Shown here: piece after piece, positions 8,818 through 40,779 of the stretch
Layout: the number at the start of each line of letters is the position of its first letter
How positions within the stretch are numbered: the first letter of the stretch is position 1
Origin: Gammaproteobacteria bacterium
Lineage (GTDB): Bacteria > Pseudomonadota > Gammaproteobacteria > SZUA-229
Length of the DNA: 40,779 nucleotides
Reading direction: 5' to 3'
Assembly: GCA_029881275.1 (NCBI GenBank)
Contig: JAOUMX010000006.1
Location: 1-40,779 of the forward strand
The notes under the pieces: generated by a model
Seen by the model: only the letters and a program-made list of their open reading frames with translations
What the model was told of the DNA's origin: nothing
Databases searched by the model: none
Translations under genes and position numbers: made by a program

Positions 8818-11517
8818 CTACCCTGCTCTCTGTATTGCCACAGCAGTGACTTTAAATTCAGGTGTATTGGCATCCATATCAAGCACACCACTGGTTAACT
8901 GATTAATCGCCACTTCCGGAAAATGAAAGGTAGTAAACAGAACACCGGGTTTTACCTGATCACTTAATTTGGCACCCAGGTGAGTCAATCCGTGCCGTGA
9001 TCGTACGGCCACCGAATCATCATCATGAATATCATAGCGTTGCGCATCGTGAGGATTAATTAATAAAACATCCTTATTAACAATATCAATATTGGGCGTG
9101 CGCCGTGTCATCGAGCCACAGTTATAATGTTGCAGCCGCCTTCCAGTCGTCAGGATAAACGGGTAATTATTTATATCATCGCCAAGCAGTTCCGGCGTTT
9201 CAATAAACCTGGTAAATACAAACCGGCCCTTACCTGTTTTAAATTCTTCAGTATGCAGCGTTTTAGTATCGCTGCCCTCAACTGACACCGGCCATTGTTT
9301 ACCGTTATCACCCAATGTATCCCAGCGGACACCGGCAAAGAACGGCACCACTTTTGAAATTTCTTCCAGTTGTATGGCCGGATCATAACCTGCCTGCTGA
9401 TAGCCCATACGATTCATAATATCGACCATGATCTGTCCATCGGCTCGTGTACCGGGTAAAGGCTCGATCACCCTGTTTACTTTTTGTATTCGTCTTTCGC
9501 CATTGGTAAAGGTGCCGCTCTTTTCAAGATGGGATGCTGCCGGCAGCACAACATCAGCCATGCTTGCTGTTTCAGTCATAAAGATTTCCTGCACAATGAG
9601 AAAATCCAGATTTTTTAATGCACTTCGAATATGGCCGGTATCCGGATCGGTTTGTAAAATATCTTCACCCATAATCCATAATGCTTTCAGTTTTCCCTGT
9701 GCTGCCGCATGAATCATTTCCGGTGTGGTCAGGCCTTTTTCGACAGGCACCTCACAACCATAATGAAGTGCATAATGCTGGCGTGCCTTTTCATCACTGA
9801 TATCAAGATAACCGGCACCCAGTTCAGGTTGCACACCCATATCCGCGGCACCCTGAACATTATTCTGACCACGCAAGGGATTAACGCCGACACCGGGCCG
9901 GCCAATATTGCCGGTCATCATGGCCATGGATGCAACCAGCATAACACCACGACTGCCCTGATAATGTTCAGTAAGACCAAGACCATGAAAACACATGGCA
10001 TTGTTTGCCTGACCATAGAGCAATGCCGCTTCACGTACCTGTTGACGACTGACGCCGGTTACCTGTTCACATTCATCAATATCAATCGCCAGTGCCGATT
10101 GTTTAAATTCACTAAAACCTTCTGTACGTTGTGTTATGAAAGATTCATCTATCAGGTTGTCTGTAATAAGGTAATAGATAAACATATCCAGCAATGCGAC
10201 ATTCGTACCCGGGCGTAATTGCAAATGAATAGCCGCATAACGCGTCAGTTCAATGGCACGGGGATCAATAACAATGAGTGAAACACCTTTCATGGCGGCC
10301 TGACGAATTTTGGCACCGGTAACCGGATGTGCTTCCGTTGAATTGGCGCCAATCACCAGCAGACAGTCTGCCAGCGGAATCTGATCAATAGAGTTGGTTG
10401 CGGCGCCGGTACCAAATGTCTGGCGCATACCAAATGCTGTAGGTGCGTGACAGACGCGGGCACAACCATCGATATTGTTATTGCCTATAACCACACGCAT
10501 AAACTTTTGCATTAAATAATTTTCTTCATTGGTACAGCGTGATGATGAAATACCGGCAATTGCCTGAGCACCCTGCACCTGTTTAATATGATTCAGGGTG
10601 TCTGCAATATAATCTAATGCCTCATCCCAGCTAACCGGCTGAAGTTGGTTATCTTTTCGAATTAAAGGTGTTGTCAAACGATCCGGATGACGGATATATT
10701 CAAAGGCATAGCGACCTTTAACACAGGCATGACCCTGATTAACCGCGGCATCTTTAACCGCAGTAATGGCTTTAATGTCACCTTTTTTAAGCAGCACCTC
10801 GAGATTGCAGCCGACACCACAATAGGTGCAGACAGTGCGCACACGCTGATCGGCGTGCATTGTTTTTGCCCGATAACGATCCGTCAGCGCATTGGTCGGA
10901 CAGGTTTGCACACAACAACCACAGGCAACACATTCAGAAAACTTTATTTCTTCATCCATGGAAAAAATAATCTCCGCATCATAACCACGGCCCTTCATTG
11001 CCAGCACCATTTCACCCTGCACTTCATCACAGGCACGAATACAGCGATAACAGTGAATACACTGCGATGCATCGAAATGAATATAAGGATGACTGGTGTC
11101 CTCATTGACTGATATTTTTCGCAGCGGGAAACGTATTTCCTCAACAGGGATGTGTTCGATCAGTTGTTGAAAAGGTGCTGGCAATTCATCTTTCCGGGGC
11201 AAGCGGTGATTAACAGGATAATCGCTCAGCAGTAATTCCATAATGGTCGACCGGAGTTTTGTGATAACGGGCGAGTCGGTAAATATATAGTCCCCATCTG
11301 TGACCGGCGTATGACAGGATGCCTGCACACGTCTTGGTCCGTTTTCACTGCTGGCAACTTCAACACTGCAAAGCCGGCAGTTACCAAATGGTTCCAGGCT
11401 GTCTTCATGGCATAAAACTGGCGGTGTATGCTCAGGCAGGCATCGGCTTACAAACTGATAAATGGTTTCACCGTTTTTAATTGCATAGGCCTGATGATTG
11501 ATAAATGCCTGACTCAT
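8818..11517 (-). CDS. fdsA: NAD-dependent formate dehydrogenase alpha subunit (FdsA/FdhA-like, molybdopterin)
   Basis: 899 aa: N-terminal [2Fe-2S] domain, 4Fe-4S motifs CIHCYRCIRAC and CVACGCCVQTC, CTYCGVGC, active-site region GCARVCHAPTAFGM, C-terminal molydopterin dinucleotide-binding domain (TTGRRLQHYNCGSMTRR). Confidence 0.93.
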   Translation of the reverse strand: MSQAFINHQAYAIKNGETIYQFVSRCLPEHTPPVLCHEDSLEPFGNCRLCSVEVASSENGPRRVQASCHTPVTDGDYIFTDSPVITKLRSTIMELLLSDYPVNHRLPRKDELPAPFQQLIEHIPVEEIRFPLRKISVNEDTSHPYIHFDASQCIHCYRCIRACDEVQGEMVLAMKGRGYDAEIIFSMDEEIKFSECVACGCCVQTCPTNALTDRYRAKTMHADQRVRTVCTYCGVGCNLEVLLKKGDIKAITAVKDAAVNQGHACVKGRYAFEYIRHPDRLTTPLIRKDNQLQPVSWDEALDYIADTLNHIKQVQGAQAIAGISSSRCTNEENYLMQKFMRVVIGNNNIDGCARVCHAPTAFGMRQTFGTGAATNSIDQIPLADCLLVIGANSTEAHPVTGAKIRQAAMKGVSLIVIDPRAIELTRYAAIHLQLRPGTNVALLDMFIYYLITDNLIDESFITQRTEGFSEFKQSALAIDIDECEQVTGVSRQQVREAALLYGQANNAMCFHGLGLTEHYQGSRGVMLVASMAMMTGNIGRPGVGVNPLRGQNNVQGAADMGVQPELGAGYLDISDEKARQHYALHYGCEVPVEKGLTTPEMIHAAAQGKLKALWIMGEDILQTDPDTGHIRSALKNLDFLIVQEIFMTETASMADVVLPAASHLEKSGTFTNGERRIQKVNRVIEPLPGTRADGQIMVDIMNRMGYQQAGYDPAIQLEEISKVVPFFAGVRWDTLGDNGKQWPVSVEGSDTKTLHTEEFKTGKGRFVFTRFIETPELLGDDINNYPFILTTGRRLQHYNCGSMTRRTPNIDIVNKDVLLINPHDAQRYDIHDDDSVAVRSRHGLTHLGAKLSDQVKPGVLFTTFHFPEVAINQLTSGVLDMDANTPEFKVTAVAIQRAG

Positions 11518-13145
11518 AGTGACGCCTCTACAAAGTAGCCGGACAATTCATCAGAAAAATATTTCTGTATATTACGAATCGGCAATGGCAGACCACTACC
11601 AAGACCGCAGAGAGAACCATGCTCAAGAACATCAAGCAGATCATTAAACGCAGTCACATTAACAGCGGATCCTGTGGTTGCCGCCATAAGCATCTGATGA
11701 CCTTTCGCCGTACCCAGACGACAGGGTAAACATTTACCACAGGATTCACTGGCCATGAATTCAAACAAATGCCGCATGAAATCCAGCATTGGAAATGTTT
11801 TTGGGATAATAACAATACCGGCATGCCCGAGCAGAAACCCCTGCTGCTCAAATGATTCAAAATCCACTGTCAGATCAGGAATTTTTGAAACAGGCACTAC
11901 CCCGCCTAATGGACCACCTACCTGTATTGCTTTAGCATCAACTGAAAAACCACCGGCAACATGATAAATTAATTTTTGCAGGGATTCGCCCATGTCCACT
12001 TCATAAACACCGGGTCGTTTAACACCATGATCCAGACAAACCAGTTTTGTGCCACTGCTTTTTTCTGTACCCATGGCAGAAAATGCCAGGCCAGTGTTCT
12101 TTAATATCCAGGGAATAGCTGCAAACGTTTCAACATTACTGATCAGTGTTGGTTTATCAAATAATCCCTGTTGTGCAGGATAAGGCGGCCGTGTTCTGAC
12201 TTCCGGTTTTAAACCTTCGATAGAATTTAGCAAGGCGGTTTCTTCACCACAGATATAGGAACCCGCACCTTGAATCACTCGCAACTTAAATTGTGCTGTC
12301 TGACAGACCGTTGTTTTTTCAAAATCTTCAATTGCCCGGGCAATAATTTTATATGCACCCGGGTATTCTGCTCGAATGTAAATAAAACCACTATGAGCAT
12401 CACAGGCATAAGCGGCAGCAAGCATTCCCGCAAGAATCAGATGTGGATGTATTTCCAGAAGATAACGATCAGAAAAAGCACCGGGATCACCTTCATCGGC
12501 ATTACAAATTACAAATTTCTGTTCACTGATGGTCTCTGCACAGGCAACCAGCTTGCTCGCAAAGGGAAAGCCTGCCCCGCCTCTACCCCGTAGTGAAGAA
12601 TCTTTTAGTTCATTTATAATTTTGTCTTTATTTAAAAGTACGGACTGATAAAAAATATTTAAATCATCAACATCAGCGTTAAACACTGAAACCGATGAGG
12701 CGTTATAAAATGGAATGCTATCAGCCTGCTGTTTATTACCCGAAAAACACTGGCTGACATCAAATACATTATCGCTTTCCAGGAAGGCTTCACCACGATA
12801 ACAATGACCAAGACATCTAACCTCACCTGTTTCATGCTTTTGATAACGCTTATCCAGTGCTGCCTGTAGATGATGTTGATTGCCCTTGAGTAGACAGGAC
12901 GTACCATTACAAACATAAGCCCGTTTCCCCTGATTGTCAGCCTTAAGAAAATCATAAAATGAACTGGTGGCCAGCAAATGTGCAACAGCGATCTGATGCT
13001 GTTGTGAAATGTGAGTCAACTGTGTATCTGAAGGGCAACCCTGATCTTTCGCAGCATCAGTTAAAAGCTCGAACAGGGTTTTATCTTGACTATGCCGGGC
13101 ACTGATTGCTCGTATGTTGCGGGACATCGGCCACCTCAACAGCAT
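11514..13145 (-). CDS. fdsB: Formate dehydrogenase beta subunit: NuoE-NuoF (FdsG-FdsB/HoxF-like) fusion; start may be the ATG at 13127
   Basis: 543 aa; NuoE-like [2Fe-2S] ligands CNGTSC...CLGHC, then NuoF-like FMN/NAD region SSLRGRGGAGFP...CNADEGDPGAFSDR and C-terminal SCGKCLPCRLG. 4-bp overlap with fdsA. Confidence 0.9.
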   Translation of the reverse strand: MLLRWPMSRNIRAISARHSQDKTLFELLTDAAKDQGCPSDTQLTHISQQHQIAVAHLLATSSFYDFLKADNQGKRAYVCNGTSCLLKGNQHHLQAALDKRYQKHETGEVRCLGHCYRGEAFLESDNVFDVSQCFSGNKQQADSIPFYNASSVSVFNADVDDLNIFYQSVLLNKDKIINELKDSSLRGRGGAGFPFASKLVACAETISEQKFVICNADEGDPGAFSDRYLLEIHPHLILAGMLAAAYACDAHSGFIYIRAEYPGAYKIIARAIEDFEKTTVCQTAQFKLRVIQGAGSYICGEETALLNSIEGLKPEVRTRPPYPAQQGLFDKPTLISNVETFAAIPWILKNTGLAFSAMGTEKSSGTKLVCLDHGVKRPGVYEVDMGESLQKLIYHVAGGFSVDAKAIQVGGPLGGVVPVSKIPDLTVDFESFEQQGFLLGHAGIVIIPKTFPMLDFMRHLFEFMASESCGKCLPCRLGTAKGHQMLMAATTGSAVNVTAFNDLLDVLEHGSLCGLGSGLPLPIRNIQKYFSDELSGYFVEASL

Positions 13146-31516: not shown

Positions 31517-31906
31517 ATGCTCACAATATTAGTTGTAGAAGATAATGCCTTAAATCGTGACATGCTATCGCGCCGATTACAAATGGAAGGCTACAAAGTA
31601 GAGACTGCTATTAATGGTCTGCAGGCCATTGAAACAGCAAGGACCCTGCTTCCGGATTTAATATTAATGGATCTGGATCTGCCTGTTATAAATGGCTGGG
31701 AAGCAACAAAAACATTAAAAGCTGATACTGTTACCCTGGATATTCCAGTCATCGCGCTTACCGCCCATGCATTCAATGAAGACAGAAAACAGGCCATCGA
31801 AGCCGGATGTGATGACTATGACACCAAGCCCGTCGATTTCCCACGCTTACAGGAAAAAATGCAGGCTTTACTAGAGGGTGAAAAATTGAGGGCAATCACT
31901 CGCTGA
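31517..31906 (+). CDS. Single-domain response regulator (CheY/DivK-like)
   Basis: 129 aa; ILVVEDNALNRDML, phosphoacceptor DLILMDLDLPVINGWEA, IPVIALTAHA, KPVD; no output domain. Confidence 0.92.
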   Translation: MLTILVVEDNALNRDMLSRRLQMEGYKVETAINGLQAIETARTLLPDLILMDLDLPVINGWEATKTLKADTVTLDIPVIALTAHAFNEDRKQAIEAGCDDYDTKPVDFPRLQEKMQALLEGEKLRAITR

Positions 31907-32396
31907 CATAATTGTATTGTGTCACGTGATCTTTAACTATGCCCTTCTTGAGGACTTTAAAAACATCTTTATCAAAAACAATCTTACAAGGCGCCGAGAA
32001 GCCACAATCGAACATAATTTCACCGTCTATCCTGCGAAAAACATCGATATGGGCAATAATTTTTTCATCCAGAACACCAAACGTGTCCTTAATATAAGCA
32101 CTGCCTGCAGACTGCTTATTAACAACCTGAAACACCTCACGGATAGCCTCTGGTGTCACTGTCTTTGAGTAGGGATAAGGAATATAAAGCCGTATAAACC
32201 GGTTATCGCGATAGAACTTTACATAATGACTTTTACCGCTCATTTCGGCCATATCACCATCATTTTGCTCACGGCTAAAATAACCGGAATAAATCACCAC
32301 ATCGACATCTTCCTGTGCGGATGAAATATCCGAGAATACAATAGCTGACAGCATTAAAAACATGGTTATAAAAAGACCGCGATTCTTCATTAGCAT
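31896..32396 (-). CDS. Hypothetical secreted protein
   Basis: 166 aa with signal peptide (…LMLSAIVFSDISSAQ) and two Cys near the C-terminus (FDCGFSAPCKIVF). Convergent 11-bp overlap with the response-regulator gene. Confidence 0.7.
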   Translation of the reverse strand: MLMKNRGLFITMFLMLSAIVFSDISSAQEDVDVVIYSGYFSREQNDGDMAEMSGKSHYVKFYRDNRFIRLYIPYPYSKTVTPEAIREVFQVVNKQSAGSAYIKDTFGVLDEKIIAHIDVFRRIDGEIMFDCGFSAPCKIVFDKDVFKVLKKGIVKDHVTQYNYVSE

Positions 32397-32599: not shown

Positions 32600-32911
32600 A
32601 TGATAAAAAACGTTAAAAAATTCGTTGGCATCTGTCTATTTTTACTATTTACAGGCCTGTTTGCTCAGCTGAATGCTCAAGACCTTGAGCAAAACACAAC
32701 CACAGCAGCCAGTAGCAACCAACAGATATTTACCCAGGCACAAACATCAGTTTCAGGTAATCAATCTATCACAGCTAAATCACCAGAAGCCAAAAGAGAG
32801 CTGTCGATGTTTTTTAAAATCGGCATAGCACTCAACATCATCATGTTAACCGCCTACATAACCTGGGCCGTTCGACAATGGCGCCAATCAAATAATAAAA
32901 AAGACCAATGA
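32600..32911 (+). CDS. Small exported/membrane hypothetical protein
   Basis: 103 aa; N-terminal signal/TM plus C-terminal TM (MFFKIGIALNIIMLTAYITWAV); ATGA overlap with the SCO gene. Confidence 0.65.
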   Translation: MIKNVKKFVGICLFLLFTGLFAQLNAQDLEQNTTTAASSNQQIFTQAQTSVSGNQSITAKSPEAKRELSMFFKIGIALNIIMLTAYITWAVRQWRQSNNKKDQ

Positions 32912-33540
32912 GTAAAATTCAAACAAGAATAATCATTGCATTATTTGCATTTATCATTGCTCTCGCCTCAATGGTTTTCGTCAAACAACCTGCGCAGCCA
33001 TTACCTGCTGAACTAATTGCCGTGGTTCGGCCCAAAGCAGTAACCTTAAAAGAATTTTCACTGACCAACCAGCATAACCAGACTTTCACTCTCGAACAGT
33101 TAAGAAATCGTCAGTCACTGATATTTTTTGGTTACACATCATGTCCAGATATATGCCCGACCACATTATCGACATTAAATATTCTGTTTAAGTTACTTGA
33201 GAAAAAAAAGGCCAGCGGGAATTTACAGGTGGTATTTATTTCGGTTGATCCGGAACGGGATAACATTGAAAAACTCAATGCCTATATGAACTACTTTAAT
33301 GAGGACTTTATCGCAGCCACTGGCAATAAAGATGAAATAGACAAAGTCGCCAAACAATTCAATGCGGCTTATTTCATTGAAAATGACAATGCCGGTGAGA
33401 ATTATCTGATCAGCCATGCCAGTTCAATTTTCCTGGTTAATCAGGAGACAAAAATTATTGCTTCATTCTCACCACCGCATAATCCGGATATTTTAGCCGA
33501 ACAGTATTTGAAAATACGCGAGTTTTTTAATTTCAAATAA
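32908..33540 (+). CDS. SCO1/SenC-family copper/thiol protein
   Basis: 210 aa; LIFFGYTSCPDICPTTLS (CxxxC), VVFISVDPERD, ISHASSIFLV (His ligand). Confidence 0.93.
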   Translation: MSKIQTRIIIALFAFIIALASMVFVKQPAQPLPAELIAVVRPKAVTLKEFSLTNQHNQTFTLEQLRNRQSLIFFGYTSCPDICPTTLSTLNILFKLLEKKKASGNLQVVFISVDPERDNIEKLNAYMNYFNEDFIAATGNKDEIDKVAKQFNAAYFIENDNAGENYLISHASSIFLVNQETKIIASFSPPHNPDILAEQYLKIREFFNFK

Positions 33541-33623: not shown

Positions 33624-34052
33624 ATGGACATAATCCCCTATCTCCCAACTTTTCAGGCAATTCTGAATCTGATTTCTGCTACCCTGATAGGCTGCGGTTA
33701 CTTTTTCATTCGTAATAAAAACAAATCAGCACATCGTACCTGCATGACGTCAGCATTAATCGTCTCAAGTTTCTTTCTGGTATCCTATTTTTATTATCAC
33801 TGGTCAGTTGGCAATGTCCCCTTTGCAGGACAGGGTCTGATACGCCCTGTTTATTTCAGCATTCTATTTAGCCATATTCTGCTGGCACTGAGCATGCTCG
33901 CTCTAATTCCAGTAACAGTAATACTGGCTATCAAAGGAAACACCCGCACACATAAACGATTTGCACGTGTGACTTTTCCTATATGGTTTTATGTTTCTGT
34001 TACTGGCGTTATAATTTATCTGCTGGTTTTTCACTTTTATCCAGCGCAGTAA
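33624..34052 (+). CDS. DUF420 family membrane protein (CtaM/YozB-like)
   Basis: 142 aa; FQAILNLISATLIGCGYFFIRNKNKSAHRTCM, HILLALSMLALIPVTVILAIKGNTRTHKRFARVTFPIWFYVSVTGVIIYLLVF. Confidence 0.85.
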   Translation: MDIIPYLPTFQAILNLISATLIGCGYFFIRNKNKSAHRTCMTSALIVSSFFLVSYFYYHWSVGNVPFAGQGLIRPVYFSILFSHILLALSMLALIPVTVILAIKGNTRTHKRFARVTFPIWFYVSVTGVIIYLLVFHFYPAQ

Positions 34053-34441: not shown

Positions 34442-35839
34442 CTAAGAAGACTTACGAGCAGATGGCCAGATAGACTGAAACACAATAATAAGAAACAGAA
34501 TACCGCCAACGATAGCAATCATGCCACCCAGCCCCATCAATCCCATACCGGCAATTTTTTCAATACCATCTAATTGCTGAGCAACACCTGCCGTTTTTCT
34601 CTGCACGCCATATCCACCTGACCAGGCCAGTCCCAATACATGCATAAATTGCCCTGATCCATAAATAACAGGTTGCCATTTAACCAGCTTACCCTGTGGT
34701 TTTGTAAATCCAAGCCCTGGTAAAAGATGAAACGTAATACCCATAAAGGCGAGCGTAACTGCCACAATAGAACCATGATAATGGGCGGGTATAATGACAT
34801 TACTACCACTGATCATGTATCCAATGACACCACCCATGGCAAATAATAATATCGAAAACAAAAGCGCATTACCTGCGGCACTTTCTTCCGGCATAGATTT
34901 GGCGCCTGCAAATAAACTGTAAATGATCATTACGCCGACAGGTGCTGCTGCCAGCCCACCCCCAAACTTCATGATCAGACTAATTATTTCCAGGTGATCA
35001 GCTGAACCAACATCAAATAAAATATACACCAGTGGCGTCATCAGTACTGGCAACAGGCCAATGGCAAATAGCATCAATACTATTCTGGGTGTTATCTGCA
35101 AATGGATACCGGAAAAGGTTGCCAGACACAGCCATGCAACCAGCATAAGCTGAACATGAACAAACTGAACTGTGTGTCCTGCCCCCCAGAAAAGCAGTTC
35201 ATAATAATACTCACCTTCTGCTGTCGCTGGCATTCCATACCAGGATGCCAGCAGTGCCGCTATCGCAACCACAGCGGAAATCAATGCGGTGTATAAACCA
35301 AAACGAATGGCCCCTTCCCCACTGATAATCGCCCCCACCGGGTTTGAAAAAAACAGACCTCGCAGGACAAGCACAGCAAAACCCAGACCAAATAAGCCCA
35401 GGCCAGCAAAGAAAACAGGATCGCGCAGTACAGGCACATAATTATTCATAAATGGCATACCCGCTCCCAGGAATGGCGCCAGAATAATAATCAACATCCC
35501 GGTTGCTGATAAAAATAAAGCCAGCCAGCCGCACTTGAAACAGGCTGCACGACTATTCAATGTCCAGAACATACCCGCATAGGCCAGAAACCAGACCAGA
35601 ACAGTGAGATCAACATGCACTACCAGTGCTGTATGAAAAAAATCAGTCCAGGGCACTATATCCTGAAAGAATGGTGTTCTTGAAAGGACAATAAGAATGG
35701 TAAACAGACCCGCTATCAGTAAAGAACTGATCGCCAGTAATAACCAGGCAATACTCATTCTGCGGTTTTTATTATCTGTGGGCAGTGTCAGAACAAAATT
35801 GTCAGCCATCGCATTATAAGAATGCATATCTTCTTTCAT
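34442..35839 (-). CDS. Heme-copper oxidase subunit I homologue, divergent (apparently lacks CuB His-His)
   Basis: 465 aa, ~12 TMs; TM2-like HVDLTVLVWFLAYAG, TM6-like LLFWGAGHTVQFVHVQLM, TM10-like VIIPAHYHGSIVAVTLAFMGITFHLLP; expected TM7 HH position reads TPLVYILFDVGSADH. Confidence 0.8.
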   Translation of the reverse strand: MKEDMHSYNAMADNFVLTLPTDNKNRRMSIAWLLLAISSLLIAGLFTILIVLSRTPFFQDIVPWTDFFHTALVVHVDLTVLVWFLAYAGMFWTLNSRAACFKCGWLALFLSATGMLIIILAPFLGAGMPFMNNYVPVLRDPVFFAGLGLFGLGFAVLVLRGLFFSNPVGAIISGEGAIRFGLYTALISAVVAIAALLASWYGMPATAEGEYYYELLFWGAGHTVQFVHVQLMLVAWLCLATFSGIHLQITPRIVLMLFAIGLLPVLMTPLVYILFDVGSADHLEIISLIMKFGGGLAAAPVGVMIIYSLFAGAKSMPEESAAGNALLFSILLFAMGGVIGYMISGSNVIIPAHYHGSIVAVTLAFMGITFHLLPGLGFTKPQGKLVKWQPVIYGSGQFMHVLGLAWSGGYGVQRKTAGVAQQLDGIEKIAGMGLMGLGGMIAIVGGILFLIIVFQSIWPSARKSS

Positions 35840-35948
35840 AACAGATGGATACTCTGGGGTTAATCAGGCACTAGATTGATTGATACAACTAATAGTATCT
35901 AATCTGTCTGCCATATAGAAATACTCGAACCGTTTCAATAATGAAAAT

Positions 35949-36452
35949 TTAAAACACATTAAAACCACCTATCTCTGATTTAAACTCTATAACCAGATGC
36001 TGTTCGGGCGCCAGGGTTATTTCCTGTTCAAGCTGATAGATTGGGCCTTCAACTTTAACATCATCGTTCAACCAGACAGTGAGTTTATGTTTTCCCGCCG
36101 GTGCTCTGATATTTTCATAAATATCTATACCCTGATCTTTATACAAGCCAAGTGGTGGCGCAGTTTTACTAAAAATCACCTTATCATCTAACTTGAGTTC
36201 CATAATAATCGGTGAACGCTCACGGGGACAATCCATGGGTTTACGCATATTAGGTGGCAATTTAAGCAAGTCTTCCTGAGAATATTTTACACAGGCACGT
36301 ACATGTTTACCGACATGACCGAGGGTAAAAGTAATCATGGCCTGATTTTCGTCAAGATGATGATAGGAAGGATACAATGAAAAATACCCGACCAGCCCCA
36401 TGAACAGAGCATAATTAAAAATCTGTAATGGATAGCGTATAAATTTTTTCAT
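35949..36452 (-). CDS. Hypothetical membrane-anchored periplasmic protein
   Basis: 167 aa; single N-terminal TM then beta-rich domain; ATGA overlap with the upstream cytochrome b fusion gene. Confidence 0.75.
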   Translation of the reverse strand: MKKFIRYPLQIFNYALFMGLVGYFSLYPSYHHLDENQAMITFTLGHVGKHVRACVKYSQEDLLKLPPNMRKPMDCPRERSPIIMELKLDDKVIFSKTAPPLGLYKDQGIDIYENIRAPAGKHKLTVWLNDDVKVEGPIYQLEQEITLAPEQHLVIEFKSEIGGFNVF

Positions 36453-37996
36453 GACCCACCTTCATTCACGGATTCATGATCAGCATCAAGTTGCTGAAGA
36501 CTTGCCTGAAAGCGATCAAGTTCTCGACGCAATTCCTTACAATCGGATTCCGCTGCTCTGAAAATATTAATACGGGCACGATTAGCTCGTTTACGTAAAA
36601 TGGGCTGACGTTCCCCCGCAAGTCGTTCATCAAACCATTTATTACCATGACGGAAATAACAGTCACCGGTACGACAACCGGTAACAAAAACACCATCAGC
36701 ACCCTTTTTAAGCGCATATTCAATCATCGTGGGTGGAATCATACCGACACAGAAAAAACTAACAACGGCAATACTGGATGATTGCAAACCTGTAAAATTA
36801 ATGGCGTTATCACAACCAAAGACAATAATTTTATTTTCACCCTGCAGATTATTAATAGCGGACTCAACATTAGTACGAAGACTATTGATTGATGACTGAG
36901 GCATATCAATGCCGGTCACCAGTTCCTGCTGACTGTGCCTGAATGGATTGGAAGAATGACATGCACCCACGCAGATCCCACATGCTGCACAGAGTGATTC
37001 ATTGACTACAACTTCATTTTCCCAGCGTGCACCATCGGTTCGCTTTTGTACCGTGATCGCATCAAATGGACAATCCATGGCACATTGTTCACAACCATTA
37101 CACTCATCAAGATGTACTTCCGCTGCCTGACCCGTTTTCTTTCTTGGCAACCAGGGCATGATCATAAGAAACCCGGTAATACCCAGCGTCAACATCCAGA
37201 CCTGTCCTTCCGTCCAGTAATCCATTAATGGATAAATATTAAGATAAAACCAGTCAACATTAAGCACTGCAGGCGCTTTGGTAATGTCCGCAGCTTCATG
37301 ACTCACTGCAGGCAAGAGCAATGACAGGACAAGCAAGGCAATAAAACTACCGACAGCCAGCCCCCTGGGTGGCACAATAGAAACATCAGACAGTCGTTTA
37401 ACATGAATCCACAAGGCAAAAAATAAAATTACCGGCTGACCCAGTAAATGCAGAAAGCCCATAAGGGTAAAAAATCGATCATTAATCTGACTTTGTAGAA
37501 AATTACGTGACATGGAGGCAGGCATCAATGGCAAAGCATCCATTAACTGTGATGACTGTACCGCAATGTACAGCGCAAGATCATCCCAGACCAGCCAGTA
37601 ACCGGTGATACCCAGTGTAATAACAAACCAGAGTGTTGGCACACCGGTTACCCAGGAAAACCAGCGAAATCCCCGATAACGATCCAGTGCAAACTCTCTA
37701 AACATATGTAACAGAATGGTAATGATAGCCGCATCGGATGCATAACGATGTAAACTTCGCATCACGCCAGCCACATACCATTGATCATGAGTCATGTATT
37801 CAACAGACGCATAGGCACCGGTAAGACTGGTATCAAAAAATATAAATAAATACAAACCACTGACAAAGACGACCCAGAAAAAGAAAAAGGTCAGTGTGCC
37901 AAGGTTATAAAGCGGGTTCCAGGCATTACCAAATGACAGGTTAAACCAGGTTTCAAGAGCCAGGTAACCTCGTTTCACCGGGTGTATAAATTTCAC
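36449..37996 (-). CDS. Cytochrome b (b6-like) - 2x[4Fe-4S] ferredoxin - MvhD-like fusion protein
   Basis: 515 aa; heme His pairs SLHRYASDAAIITILLH and FLHLLGQPVILFFALWIHVKR; ferredoxin CNGCEQCAMDCP and CAACGICVGAC; MvhD-like VFGCDN...FFCVGMIPPTMIEYALKKGADGVFVTGCRTGDCYFRHGN. Confidence 0.85.
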   Translation of the reverse strand: MKFIHPVKRGYLALETWFNLSFGNAWNPLYNLGTLTFFFFWVVFVSGLYLFIFFDTSLTGAYASVEYMTHDQWYVAGVMRSLHRYASDAAIITILLHMFREFALDRYRGFRWFSWVTGVPTLWFVITLGITGYWLVWDDLALYIAVQSSQLMDALPLMPASMSRNFLQSQINDRFFTLMGFLHLLGQPVILFFALWIHVKRLSDVSIVPPRGLAVGSFIALLVLSLLLPAVSHEAADITKAPAVLNVDWFYLNIYPLMDYWTEGQVWMLTLGITGFLMIMPWLPRKKTGQAAEVHLDECNGCEQCAMDCPFDAITVQKRTDGARWENEVVVNESLCAACGICVGACHSSNPFRHSQQELVTGIDMPQSSINSLRTNVESAINNLQGENKIIVFGCDNAINFTGLQSSSIAVVSFFCVGMIPPTMIEYALKKGADGVFVTGCRTGDCYFRHGNKWFDERLAGERQPILRKRANRARINIFRAAESDCKELRRELDRFQASLQQLDADHESVNEGGS

Positions 37997-38099: not shown

Positions 38100-38930
38100 T
38101 CAAACAGCTGAATTACGTCCACTACGACGAAATTCCCGAACAATAAAGCTGGCGGTTAGAAAAAGAATGAGCGCACCAATAAACATCCCTATAAATAAGG
38201 AATAATCAAAATGATAGGAATCCGTATTAGGGTCATAGGCGGTACAGAAAAAACGAACCTTATCCAGTAAACTGTCAAGCTTTGTCTGGTCAGGCTTTGG
38301 TCTGTCAAGCACCAGTTCTAGCAAAGGGTCGACCAGTAACTGGGTATCAAACACTTCACCATAAACCTGGCGATATATTTCACCATTGGCATCGACAACA
38401 GTCGCCTGCACGACATGATCAAATCCATTCGGCGCGGTAAAAAACAGAAAACCCAGTTCTTTACTTAAGGTCGCAATGGTATCAGGCGATGCACTTAACA
38501 GATTCCAGTTTTTATCATCTATGCCCTGTTGTCTGGCAAAATACTTCATTGCCAGTGGATTATCATTTTGAGTATCAAAACCAATCACGGCAACATTAAA
38601 ACTTTCCTCACCAAGGACATCACGCGCTTTATCAACCACTTTGGAAAGATGACGAATTGTCATAGGACATATTTGATAACAACTGGTAAAAATCATACTG
38701 ATCACCAGCGGCTTACCACGTAAATCCGCCATCGACACTGAAATACCCTGCTCATTAATAAAACGCAGTTCACTAATGGTCTTGCCAATAGCATCCTGAC
38801 TGGCCTGCAAAGCCGATTTATATTGAAAGGTCTGAATATTATTTTTGGGGTCAGTTTTAACCGTGTTATCACCATAAACAGGGACGGTCAAACTGCACAA
38901 CAGAATAACTAAATAAATTAATTTATACAT
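38100..38930 (-). CDS. SCO1/SenC-family protein with C-terminal TM extension
   Basis: 276 aa; signal peptide, VISMIFTSCYQICPMTIRHLS (CxxxC), GFDHVVQATVVD, then FFCTAYDPNTDSYHFDYSLFIGMFIGALILFLTASFIVREF. Confidence 0.9.
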   Translation of the reverse strand: MYKLIYLVILLCSLTVPVYGDNTVKTDPKNNIQTFQYKSALQASQDAIGKTISELRFINEQGISVSMADLRGKPLVISMIFTSCYQICPMTIRHLSKVVDKARDVLGEESFNVAVIGFDTQNDNPLAMKYFARQQGIDDKNWNLLSASPDTIATLSKELGFLFFTAPNGFDHVVQATVVDANGEIYRQVYGEVFDTQLLVDPLLELVLDRPKPDQTKLDSLLDKVRFFCTAYDPNTDSYHFDYSLFIGMFIGALILFLTASFIVREFRRSGRNSAV

Positions 38931-38949: not shown

Positions 38950-38985
38950 TAATAACTGTTAGACAATGAATGCTAACAGTTATTA
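38950..38985. terminator. Perfect 13-bp hairpin at the end of the heme O synthase gene (terminator or processing hairpin)
   Basis: TAATAACTGTTAG (38950-38962) / CTAACAGTTATTA (38973-38985), 10-nt loop; overlaps the stop codon at 38983-38985. Confidence 0.55.
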
Positions 38986-39840
38986 AACCACCATAACATC
39001 AAGTACCGCGAAGAAAAGCAATGCTATCAACTGAACCAGTGAAGCCAGAAAACTGACAATAGCTGTTTTAGGTGTCGGATTACTCGCCAACTGGGCAGCA
39101 CGGTAGATAAAATAACCACCGCCAGAAACAGCACCAATTAGATAAAGCCAGCCCAGACCATAAAAGAATGGCAGCACAGACACACTGACTAACAGAATAG
39201 CATTCCAGAGAACTGCTTTAGCTGCCGCTTTATCACCTTTCACAACTGGCAACATAGGCACACCTGCCGCGGCATAATCCGCATGCTTGGCAATCGCCAG
39301 ACTCCAGAAGTGTGGCGGTGTCCAGAGAAACAACACCATCGCCAGAATGATTGGAATAGGTCCCAGACCGGGGTCGACCACTGCCGCGCCTGCCAGTACT
39401 GCAAAACTACCCGAAGCACCACCAATCACAATATTCAGCCAGGTGCGACGTTTTAACCAGACGGTATAAACGATGGCATAAAAAAACGCACCCAGAAAAA
39501 TAAACAAAGCAGCCTGACCATTCAATGTGTAAGCAGCCGTTCCCACACCAACAATCAGCAGCAGATTGATAGCAATTAACCATAAAGGATTGTCACCGGA
39601 AAACTCACCGGTCACAAAAGGACGTGATTTTGTTCGCTCCATGAGGTGATCAACATCACGCTCATAATATTGATTAAAAGCACCTGCACTACCTGAAGCC
39701 ATGAGTACAGTTAAAGCCAGTACAATAACTTGCCATACAGGCACTGACTGCCCAGGCGTCACCATCAGAGCAACAACCGCTGTAATGCTCATAATAATGC
39801 CGATGCGAAGTTTGAACAGATTGATAAGCTGTTTAACCAT
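38983..39840 (-). CDS. ctaB: Protoheme IX farnesyltransferase (heme O synthase)
   Basis: 285 aa; SGSAGAFNQYYERDVDHLMERTKSRPFVTGEFS (UbiA-family Asp motif), LKRRTWLNIVIGGASGSFAVLAGAA, FLWTPPHFWSLAIAKHADYAAAGVPMLPVVKG. Confidence 0.95.
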   Translation of the reverse strand: MVKQLINLFKLRIGIIMSITAVVALMVTPGQSVPVWQVIVLALTVLMASGSAGAFNQYYERDVDHLMERTKSRPFVTGEFSGDNPLWLIAINLLLIVGVGTAAYTLNGQAALFIFLGAFFYAIVYTVWLKRRTWLNIVIGGASGSFAVLAGAAVVDPGLGPIPIILAMVLFLWTPPHFWSLAIAKHADYAAAGVPMLPVVKGDKAAAKAVLWNAILLVSVSVLPFFYGLGWLYLIGAVSGGGYFIYRAAQLASNPTPKTAIVSFLASLVQLIALLFFAVLDVMVV

Positions 39841-39991: not shown

Positions 39992-40779
39992 TTAGCCAAG
40001 TGGCCAAACTGACGCCAGGTACTTCCAGTTAATGAAGTAGTACACAACAAAGGTTACCAGCAACAATAAAGCCAGACCAAACGTGCCGGGTGCTTCAAAT
40101 GTCTTGGTATCATGATGCTGTGCAGGTGGTGCCATAGGCACAACTTCTGGTTTGCTGACATTGTAAACATCTGCTGCCAGAGGTTTACCAGTAAAGCACT
40201 CCAGGAAGCCCGCAGACTTCTCGATCTTTTCACCGAATAACAATGAACCAACAGTCACTAACAGGTAAGCACCGCCACCGATAATACCGAGAACACCACC
40301 AATAGCACCTATTGCCATCAGCGTGTAGGCCATACCGGGATATTCAAAGGTTAACAGTGCGCCGGTAAAGTCCATATCCCAGTGACGACGGGAAACACCC
40401 AGTGTACCTGCACCCAGCATAAACAGAACCAGAATGGTCATGCCGCCGCCAAACAGGTATGGCTGAATCTTGGCCAGACCTGGCATAAACACTTTTCGAC
40501 GGAACAGTGCAGGAATCAGCAAATAGGTCAGTGACATGAATGCCAGAGTCGTGCCTGTTACCACCGTTGCATGGAAATGCGCAGGTACATAAATAGTGTT
40601 ATGGATGATCAGGTTAATCTGCTCAGTACCCATTACAACACCGGTAATACCGCCGATGAAGCCGAAGGTCACCAGAGAAATGAACATACCGGAGAACACG
40701 GGGTTACCCCAGGGTGCTTTACGCAGCCATTCATACAGACCTTTTGTATAACCTTTCTGACGCTGAGCCACTTCGATTG
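39992..40779 (-). CDS. Heme-copper oxidase subunit I, C-terminal part (5' end outside the window)
   Basis: TM10-like IYVPAHFHATVVTGTTLAFMSLTYLLIPALF and further TMs. The frame stays open past the ORF-track start to the window edge (…IEVAQRQKGY). Confidence 0.88.
   Translation of the reverse strand, partial: IEVAQRQKGYTKGLYEWLRKAPWGNPVFSGMFISLVTFGFIGGITGVVMGTEQINLIIHNTIYVPAHFHATVVTGTTLAFMSLTYLLIPALFRRKVFMPGLAKIQPYLFGGGMTILVLFMLGAGTLGVSRRHWDMDFTGALLTFEYPGMAYTLMAIGAIGGVLGIIGGGAYLLVTVGSLLFGEKIEKSAGFLECFTGKPLAADVYNVSKPEVVPMAPPAQHHDTKTFEAPGTFGLALLLLVTFVVYYFINWKYLASVWPLG

Follow-up and report, generated by a model that had tools for sequence, protein, structure and literature searches.

The 40,779-nucleotide window analysed here (positions 1 to 40,779, forward strand, of contig JAOUMX010000006.1 in assembly GCA_029881275.1, a gammaproteobacterium of lineage SZUA-229) is a single contig of a 2.85 Mb genome and encodes a fusion of a di-heme cytochrome b, two [4Fe-4S] motifs and an MvhD domain (hereafter, the fusion), followed by a 167-residue protein (p167). 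Both genes belong to an operon that reads CuA subunit II, B-family heme-copper subunit I, ctaB, SCO, fusion, p167, and the upstream enzyme has the sequence signature of an eNOR-type (ba3-a1) nitric oxide (NO) reductase. It is very probable that the fusion and p167 serve this enzyme rather than forming a trio with the product of the next gene, a putatively CuB-less homologue of oxidase subunit I (the COX1-like protein). The best explanation for the pair, which we offer tentatively and at somewhat less than an even chance, is that it acts as an accessory redox (maturation) module of the eNOR encoded in the same operon. The partner of the pair is fixed far better by the data than the reaction that the pair carries out.

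The three co-directional minus-strand genes named in the original prediction occupy 34442-37996 and encode proteins of 515 (GTG start), 167 and 465 residues. The reading frames of the fusion and p167 overlap by ATGA, and the translational coupling read from this overlap holds, the arrangement being kept even where the pair is encoded away from eNOR genes. The COX1-like gene follows after a gap of 109 bp, close to the earlier figure of about 110 bp, and no terminator-like site was seen in this gap, with terminator and promoter scans performing no better than on shuffled sequences. Along the minus strand, transcription would pass through the end of subunit I, ctaB, SCO, the fusion, p167 and the COX1-like gene (Table 1). 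The eNOR subunit I gene was split by the assembly: the window end (40653-40779) shares 127 identical bases with L064:10211-10337 on contig C108, and joining the two contigs restores the full-length subunit I, preceded by the CuA subunit II gene.

Table 1. Coordinates of the operon and of neighbouring genes, with the evidence for each assignment.
Feature	Position	Strand	Evidence or remark
CuA subunit II gene, 178 aa	C108:8725-9258, outside window		precedes subunit I
B-family heme-copper subunit I (eNOR-type), C-terminal part	39992..40777	-	576 aa after joining with contig C108
ctaB, heme o synthase	38983..39840	-	TIGR01473 above cut-off, 260 bits; same position in most relatives
SCO-type copper/thiol protein	38100..38930	-	PF02630 5e-13; between ctaB and fusion in relatives
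Fusion, di-heme cytochrome b + 2x[4Fe-4S] + MvhD	36449..37996	-	Pfam, Foldseek, invariant ligands, co-occurrence
p167, N-terminal transmembrane helix and beta-sandwich read as Ig-like, predicted periplasmic	35949..36452	-	AlphaFold; ATGA overlap with fusion
Heme-binding subunit I-like protein, probably without a complete CuB site	34442..35839	-	ligand alignment, co-occurrence
DUF420 protein, divergent neighbour	33624..34052	+	PF04238 3e-39; often near the cluster in Gammaproteobacteria
Second SCO protein, neighbour	32908..33540	+	PF02630 2e-41

Gene neighbourhoods were compared across 80 named loci encoding the fusion. These loci come from Gammaproteobacteria (Candidatus Parabeggiatoa, Thioploca, Sedimenticola and Thiogranum being examples), Magnetococcales and Alphaproteobacteria (among them the cultured Limibaculum sediminis). 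The order CuA subunit, subunit I, ctaB, SCO, fusion, p167 recurred in all three groups. p167 stood directly after the fusion in 77/80 loci, and the CuA subunit, subunit I and SCO genes lay directly upstream of the fusion in 46/80, several of the others being cut by contig ends. In several Magnetococcales (L118, L126, L128), the pair was not linked to the eNOR genes and lay close to heme d1/nir genes. The COX1-like gene followed p167 in many Gammaproteobacteria and was otherwise inverted, distant or absent. The original prediction had treated the three genes as one module and had proposed a neighbourhood comparison, counting a lack of conservation against itself; the trio was not conserved, but the pair of fusion and p167 was, and its conserved neighbours lie upstream. 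The second oxidase that the original prediction had placed nearby does exist as a heme-copper subunit I; however, it is the core of the pair's own operon, and its eNOR signature had been missed. In some Magnetococcales (L118, L122, L126), the fusion and p167 genes are divergent from an apparent isc operon for Fe-S cluster assembly.

Co-occurrence across genomes ties the pair to the same enzyme. Among 229 genomes drawn at class level, with subunit I called at E < 1e-170 (other heme-copper oxidases reached 1e-45 or weaker), subunit I was present in 19, the fusion in 20, p167 in 21 and the COX1-like gene in 24. The fusion was found in 19/19 genomes with eNOR subunit I compared to 1/210 others, the single exception being a 77% complete genome (p = 8e-27). 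p167 was likewise present in 19/19 eNOR genomes, and its 21 genomes were all 20 with the fusion and one in which a contig end truncates the fusion. A draw at phylum level (274 genomes, 28 further ones with subunit I) gave the fusion in 27/28 subunit I genomes, often on another contig or far off, and in 0/13 without eNOR, so that both draws together place it in 46/47 eNOR genomes. The COX1-like gene showed a looser distribution, occurring in 15/19 eNOR genomes of the class draw and in nine genomes without eNOR, which speaks against its having been counted in the unit. Because the fusion and p167 track subunit I and the COX1-like gene does so less closely, the firm association is that of the pair with the upstream enzyme and not with the COX1-like protein.

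Subunit I is a B-family heme-copper protein whose orthologue had the ba3 oxidase of T. thermophilus as its best PDB match (4gp4/1xme, 2e-47 to 3e-47). The heme ligands H66, H382 and H384 and the CuB ligands H228, H277 and H278 were present in all relatives having the column (58-60 sequences), and the CuA ligands of subunit II (H124, C159, E161, C163, H167 and M170) were each conserved in 59/59. At the position of the catalytic tyrosine (H228+4, Q232), a glutamine was found in 60/60 sequences; O2 reductases carry a cross-linked tyrosine at this position. A glutamine in place of the active-site tyrosine is the mark of eNOR (PMC8756737, Table A4 and Figure A7). Enzymes of the ba3-a1 type have no catalytic tyrosine and share their operon with SCO (PMC6431628); the name eNOR was given to this type once NO reductase activity had been reported (PMC8879329). 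The operon examined here shares with the described eNOR/ba3-a1 operon the CuA subunit II, the B-family subunit I with Gln for Tyr, and SCO (PMC6431628, PMC8756737), with ctaB also present. Assignment to sNOR (norSY-senC-orf1) was rejected, since sNOR has asparagine at the tyrosine position and glutamine is found here. RME88945 (cytochrome b6, DMSOR-beta and FlpD), considered as an eNOR neighbour, was also rejected, being listed in PMC8756737 for its cytochrome c domain.

The distribution of denitrification genes fits this assignment. Genes with a cd1 domain (NirS/NirF/NirN type) occurred in 16/19 eNOR genomes compared to 27/210 others (p = 1e-10). Within these 43 genomes, the motif HLWVEGx(F/W)E, which we take to be that of NorB (c/qNOR), was detected in 3/16 of those with eNOR and in 21/27 of those lacking it (p = 3e-4), the scan having used an exact DNA pattern with which divergent NorB can be missed. 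Because of this distribution, eNOR seems to substitute for c/qNOR. The host genome itself has cd1-domain genes (contigs C120 and C145) and gave no c/qNOR motif in the exact-pattern scan, and a member of its family (G137), also with cd1-domain genes, has the c/qNOR motif and neither eNOR nor the fusion. Judged from these sequence features, the upstream enzyme would function as an NO reductase, and the operon would belong to NO reduction rather than to O2 respiration.

The domains proposed for the fusion in the original prediction were confirmed by Pfam, with Cytochrome_B at residues 27-199 (1e-16), two 4Fe-4S motifs at 292-348 and FlpD/MvhD at 404-503 (2e-17). Four heme-ligating histidines with cytochrome b6 spacing (H83, H97, H183 and H198) and all twelve Fe-S cysteines (299-346, 395, 416, 441 and 446, four of them in the MvhD domain) were invariant in 86 relatives. 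A DWFY motif lies at the position of PEWY, with W249 and Y251 conserved in 86/86. Foldseek matched the membrane half to full cytochrome b of the bc1 complex over about 290 columns, beyond helix D. The C-terminal half is similar to the ferredoxin-MvhD tail of HdrA2 (2e-26); ExtP was the best NCBIfam match and ExtQ a further one. The Fe-S part is predicted to face the cytoplasm because of the established topology of cytochrome b. Entry of electrons from the cytoplasmic side is supported because paralogues swap in NAD(P)H reductase modules, which suggests the direction of flow. One of them (L068:2675-5212, minus strand, 846 aa) joins a cytochrome b of this family to a CysJ-type flavodoxin-FAD-NADPH reductase and lies beside an SCO gene, downstream of an eNOR operon. 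A second (L163:5586-7571, minus strand, 662 aa) carries a [2Fe-2S]-FAD-NAD(P) reductase instead, and both keep the four heme histidines and DWFY. In the 80 loci, whose flanking genes are only partly annotated, the intervals separating conserved members of the operon were found to contain no gene for a Rieske protein or a c-type cytochrome. Two tandem copies of the fusion occur in G354:C102 and G419:C64, genomes with more divergent eNOR (51-52% identity).

For p167, the AlphaFold model (predicted local distance difference test score, 94) consisted of a single N-terminal helix and a beta-sandwich, which may be read as Ig-like; the protein is predicted to be periplasmic. Residues C54, C75, R77, R79, G102 and D106 are invariant, and H46 and H122 nearly so. 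Pfam and PDB sequence searches found no relative of p167, and a PDB fold search gave no match with E <= 0.001, its hits being for the most part generic beta-sandwich proteins.

We considered that the pair might work as follows. A low-potential donor in the cytoplasm would reduce the MvhD [2Fe-2S] cluster and the two [4Fe-4S] clusters, from which electrons would pass to the two b hemes, cross the membrane and leave on the periplasmic side. There, with p167, they would serve the maturation of eNOR, the most likely acceptor being copper (and/or a thiol) passed by SCO to CuA/CuB. Cofactor maturation is proposed because ctaB and SCO are in the operon and p167 is a predicted periplasmic Ig-like partner. 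This role would parallel that of CcoG in the biogenesis of cbb3 oxidase; CcoG, a cupric reductase in which two cluster motifs resemble those of ferredoxins, provides the precedent (PMC8267372). The maturation mechanism itself is advanced with similar reserve, a little short of an even chance; the operon, the co-occurrence, the ligands and the folds come from the computation, whereas the topology and the direction of electron flow are predictions, and the acceptor may be copper, heme or quinone. A redox role in the biogenesis of an oxidase-type enzyme, one of the options raised in the original prediction, has the best support.

Several observations weigh against a maturation role. One eNOR genome (G290, 97% complete) lacks the fusion. 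CcoG is also present in 17/19 eNOR genomes of the class draw, so there is no lack of a general cupric reductase in them. The PEWY-like DWFY motif suggests quinone chemistry. In addition, p167 was rejected as a relative of the FixG_C domain (hhalign probability 1.4%), and no match to FixG_C was found in p167 or in the fusion.

The main alternative is that the fusion is an electron input, in which a ferredoxin- or NAD(P)H-linked donor would pass electrons through MvhD and the Fe-S clusters to the b hemes and on to quinone, feeding the eNOR chain, or in which a proton gradient would drive the reverse reaction to make low-potential reductant. The cytochrome b fold, which continues past helix D, the resemblance of DWFY to the PEWY of the Qo site and the interchangeable NAD(P)H reductase modules of the paralogues agree with it. 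However, the CuA subunit of eNOR implies electrons from cytochrome c, which any bc1 complex could supply, the pair has no conserved neighbour that encodes a dedicated soluble donor, the genes occupy an operon slot among maturation genes, and it is not obvious what p167 would do in a quinone reductase, so that we regard this explanation as rather unlikely. The assignment of the enzyme could also be wrong, with the pair serving a microaerobic O2 reductase. For the sNOR of Nitrosomonas, a B-type heme-copper oxidase proposed to be an NO reductase, induction when O2 is limiting was taken as an argument that it is a high-affinity oxidase (PMC6967387). Here, the invariant glutamine at the catalytic tyrosine position, the strong association with NirS, the replacement of c/qNOR and the NO reduction reported for a ba3-a1 type member (PMC8879329) make this improbable.

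A role for the pair as a sensor of NO or redox state that regulates nitrite or NO reductase genes would suit the loci in which it is unlinked from eNOR and stands beside nir/heme d1 genes (L118, L128). No signalling domain or regulator is conserved with the pair, though, and every Fe-S and heme ligand has been retained, as would be expected of an electron conduit, which leaves such a role very improbable. Hardly any more can be said for a single membrane complex of the CuB-less homologue, p167 and the fusion, as first envisaged: the three genes lie side by side in the window and at many loci of Gammaproteobacteria, and the COX1-like gene correlates with eNOR (p = 4e-14), but its absence from 4/19 eNOR genomes, its presence in others without eNOR and its inverted or distant placement in many loci make this the least credible of the explanations.

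The COX1-like protein is a separate, loosely associated accessory outside the core unit. It gave only a sub-threshold COX1 match (1.7e-6), and its profile matched only the Aquifex ba3 oxidase (1.7e-5). The heme ligands H75, H353 and H355 and H222 in transmembrane helix 6 (TM6) were conserved in 41/41 sequences. The description of the protein as CuB-less probably holds: the TM7 histidine pair is replaced in the HMMER alignment, but a gapped profile alignment equates a variable histidine (35/41) with one TM7 ligand. By register with the preceding arginine, this histidine motif lies about 13 residues further along, and the CuB site is for this reason regarded as lost. The protein is thus probably, although not certainly, CuB-less. 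The tyrosine position (H222+4, Phe226) is nearly invariant, with Phe in 90% or more, and in the HMMER alignment the protein lacks the combination of three CuB histidines and an active-site tyrosine expected of an O2-reducing oxidase. The window copy can be read as having an H-D-H set, but gNOR was rejected because the adjacent residue is not constant (D/N/S/H/E) and Phe occupies the active-site position, where gNOR has Asp (PMC8756737, Table A4). COX1-like genes were found near ctaA, ctaB, SCO, nirS, a sigma-factor-like gene and a NosR-like flavin mononucleotide (FMN) protein; at L166, L168, L169, L170 and L171, their neighbours are nirS, genes for heme d1, PCuAC or an FMN/Fe-S membrane protein resembling NosR/NirI. 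A second CuB-less COX1-like copy in the host (L063:772-2100, plus strand, contig C230) is 47-48% identical and adjoins a second ctaB and a SURF1-like gene.

Like the fusion, CcoG (FixG) is a membrane protein with two ferredoxin-type clusters that is encoded with a heme-copper enzyme, and it has a periplasmic Ig-like domain. In contrast to CcoG, the fusion has a di-heme cytochrome b and MvhD, and the Ig-like part resides in a second, unrelated protein; judged on sequence, the pair is not a CcoG homologue, and the likeness would lie in the way of working only. The ferredoxin-MvhD tail of HdrA2 (methanogen heterodisulfide reductase, QmoB-like) resembles the C-terminal half of the fusion, which however is attached to a cytochrome b and lacks the FAD-containing HdrA core. 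With cytochrome b6, bc1 cytochrome b and ExtP/ExtQ, the fusion shares the four heme histidines with b6 spacing and a fold extending beyond helix D; it differs from cytochrome b6/bc1 in that the operon offers no Rieske or cytochrome c1/f partner and that electrons would be exchanged through the predicted cytoplasmic Fe-S domains.

eNOR is already known, and as far as the literature found shows, the function of its companion pair is undescribed: neither the constant association of the fusion and p167 with eNOR nor a function for them was found in a search that did not include the primary eNOR paper (Murali, Hemp et al.). To our knowledge, how eNOR, a recently recognised route to N2O, obtains its copper, hemes and electrons is also undescribed, and the pair provides two concrete targets for this question. 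It could further serve as a metagenome marker that separates eNOR from look-alike oxidases. It is possible, though doubtful, that the pair is a dedicated eNOR maturation system in which one cytochrome b draws on varied cytoplasmic sources (MvhD/ferredoxin, CysJ-type NADPH or [2Fe-2S]-FAD) and delivers to a new Ig-like periplasmic acceptor. If so, the interchangeable cytoplasmic modules would show one membrane cytochrome being re-wired to different electron sources.

Elsewhere in the window, a 166-aa protein without a Pfam match (31896-32396, minus strand) has an apparent relative (L166:3646-4173) beside PCuAC near nirS. A large formate dehydrogenase-like pair (8818-13145, minus strand), judged by eye from the translation, appears to consist of a molybdopterin alpha subunit and a NuoE/F-like beta subunit.

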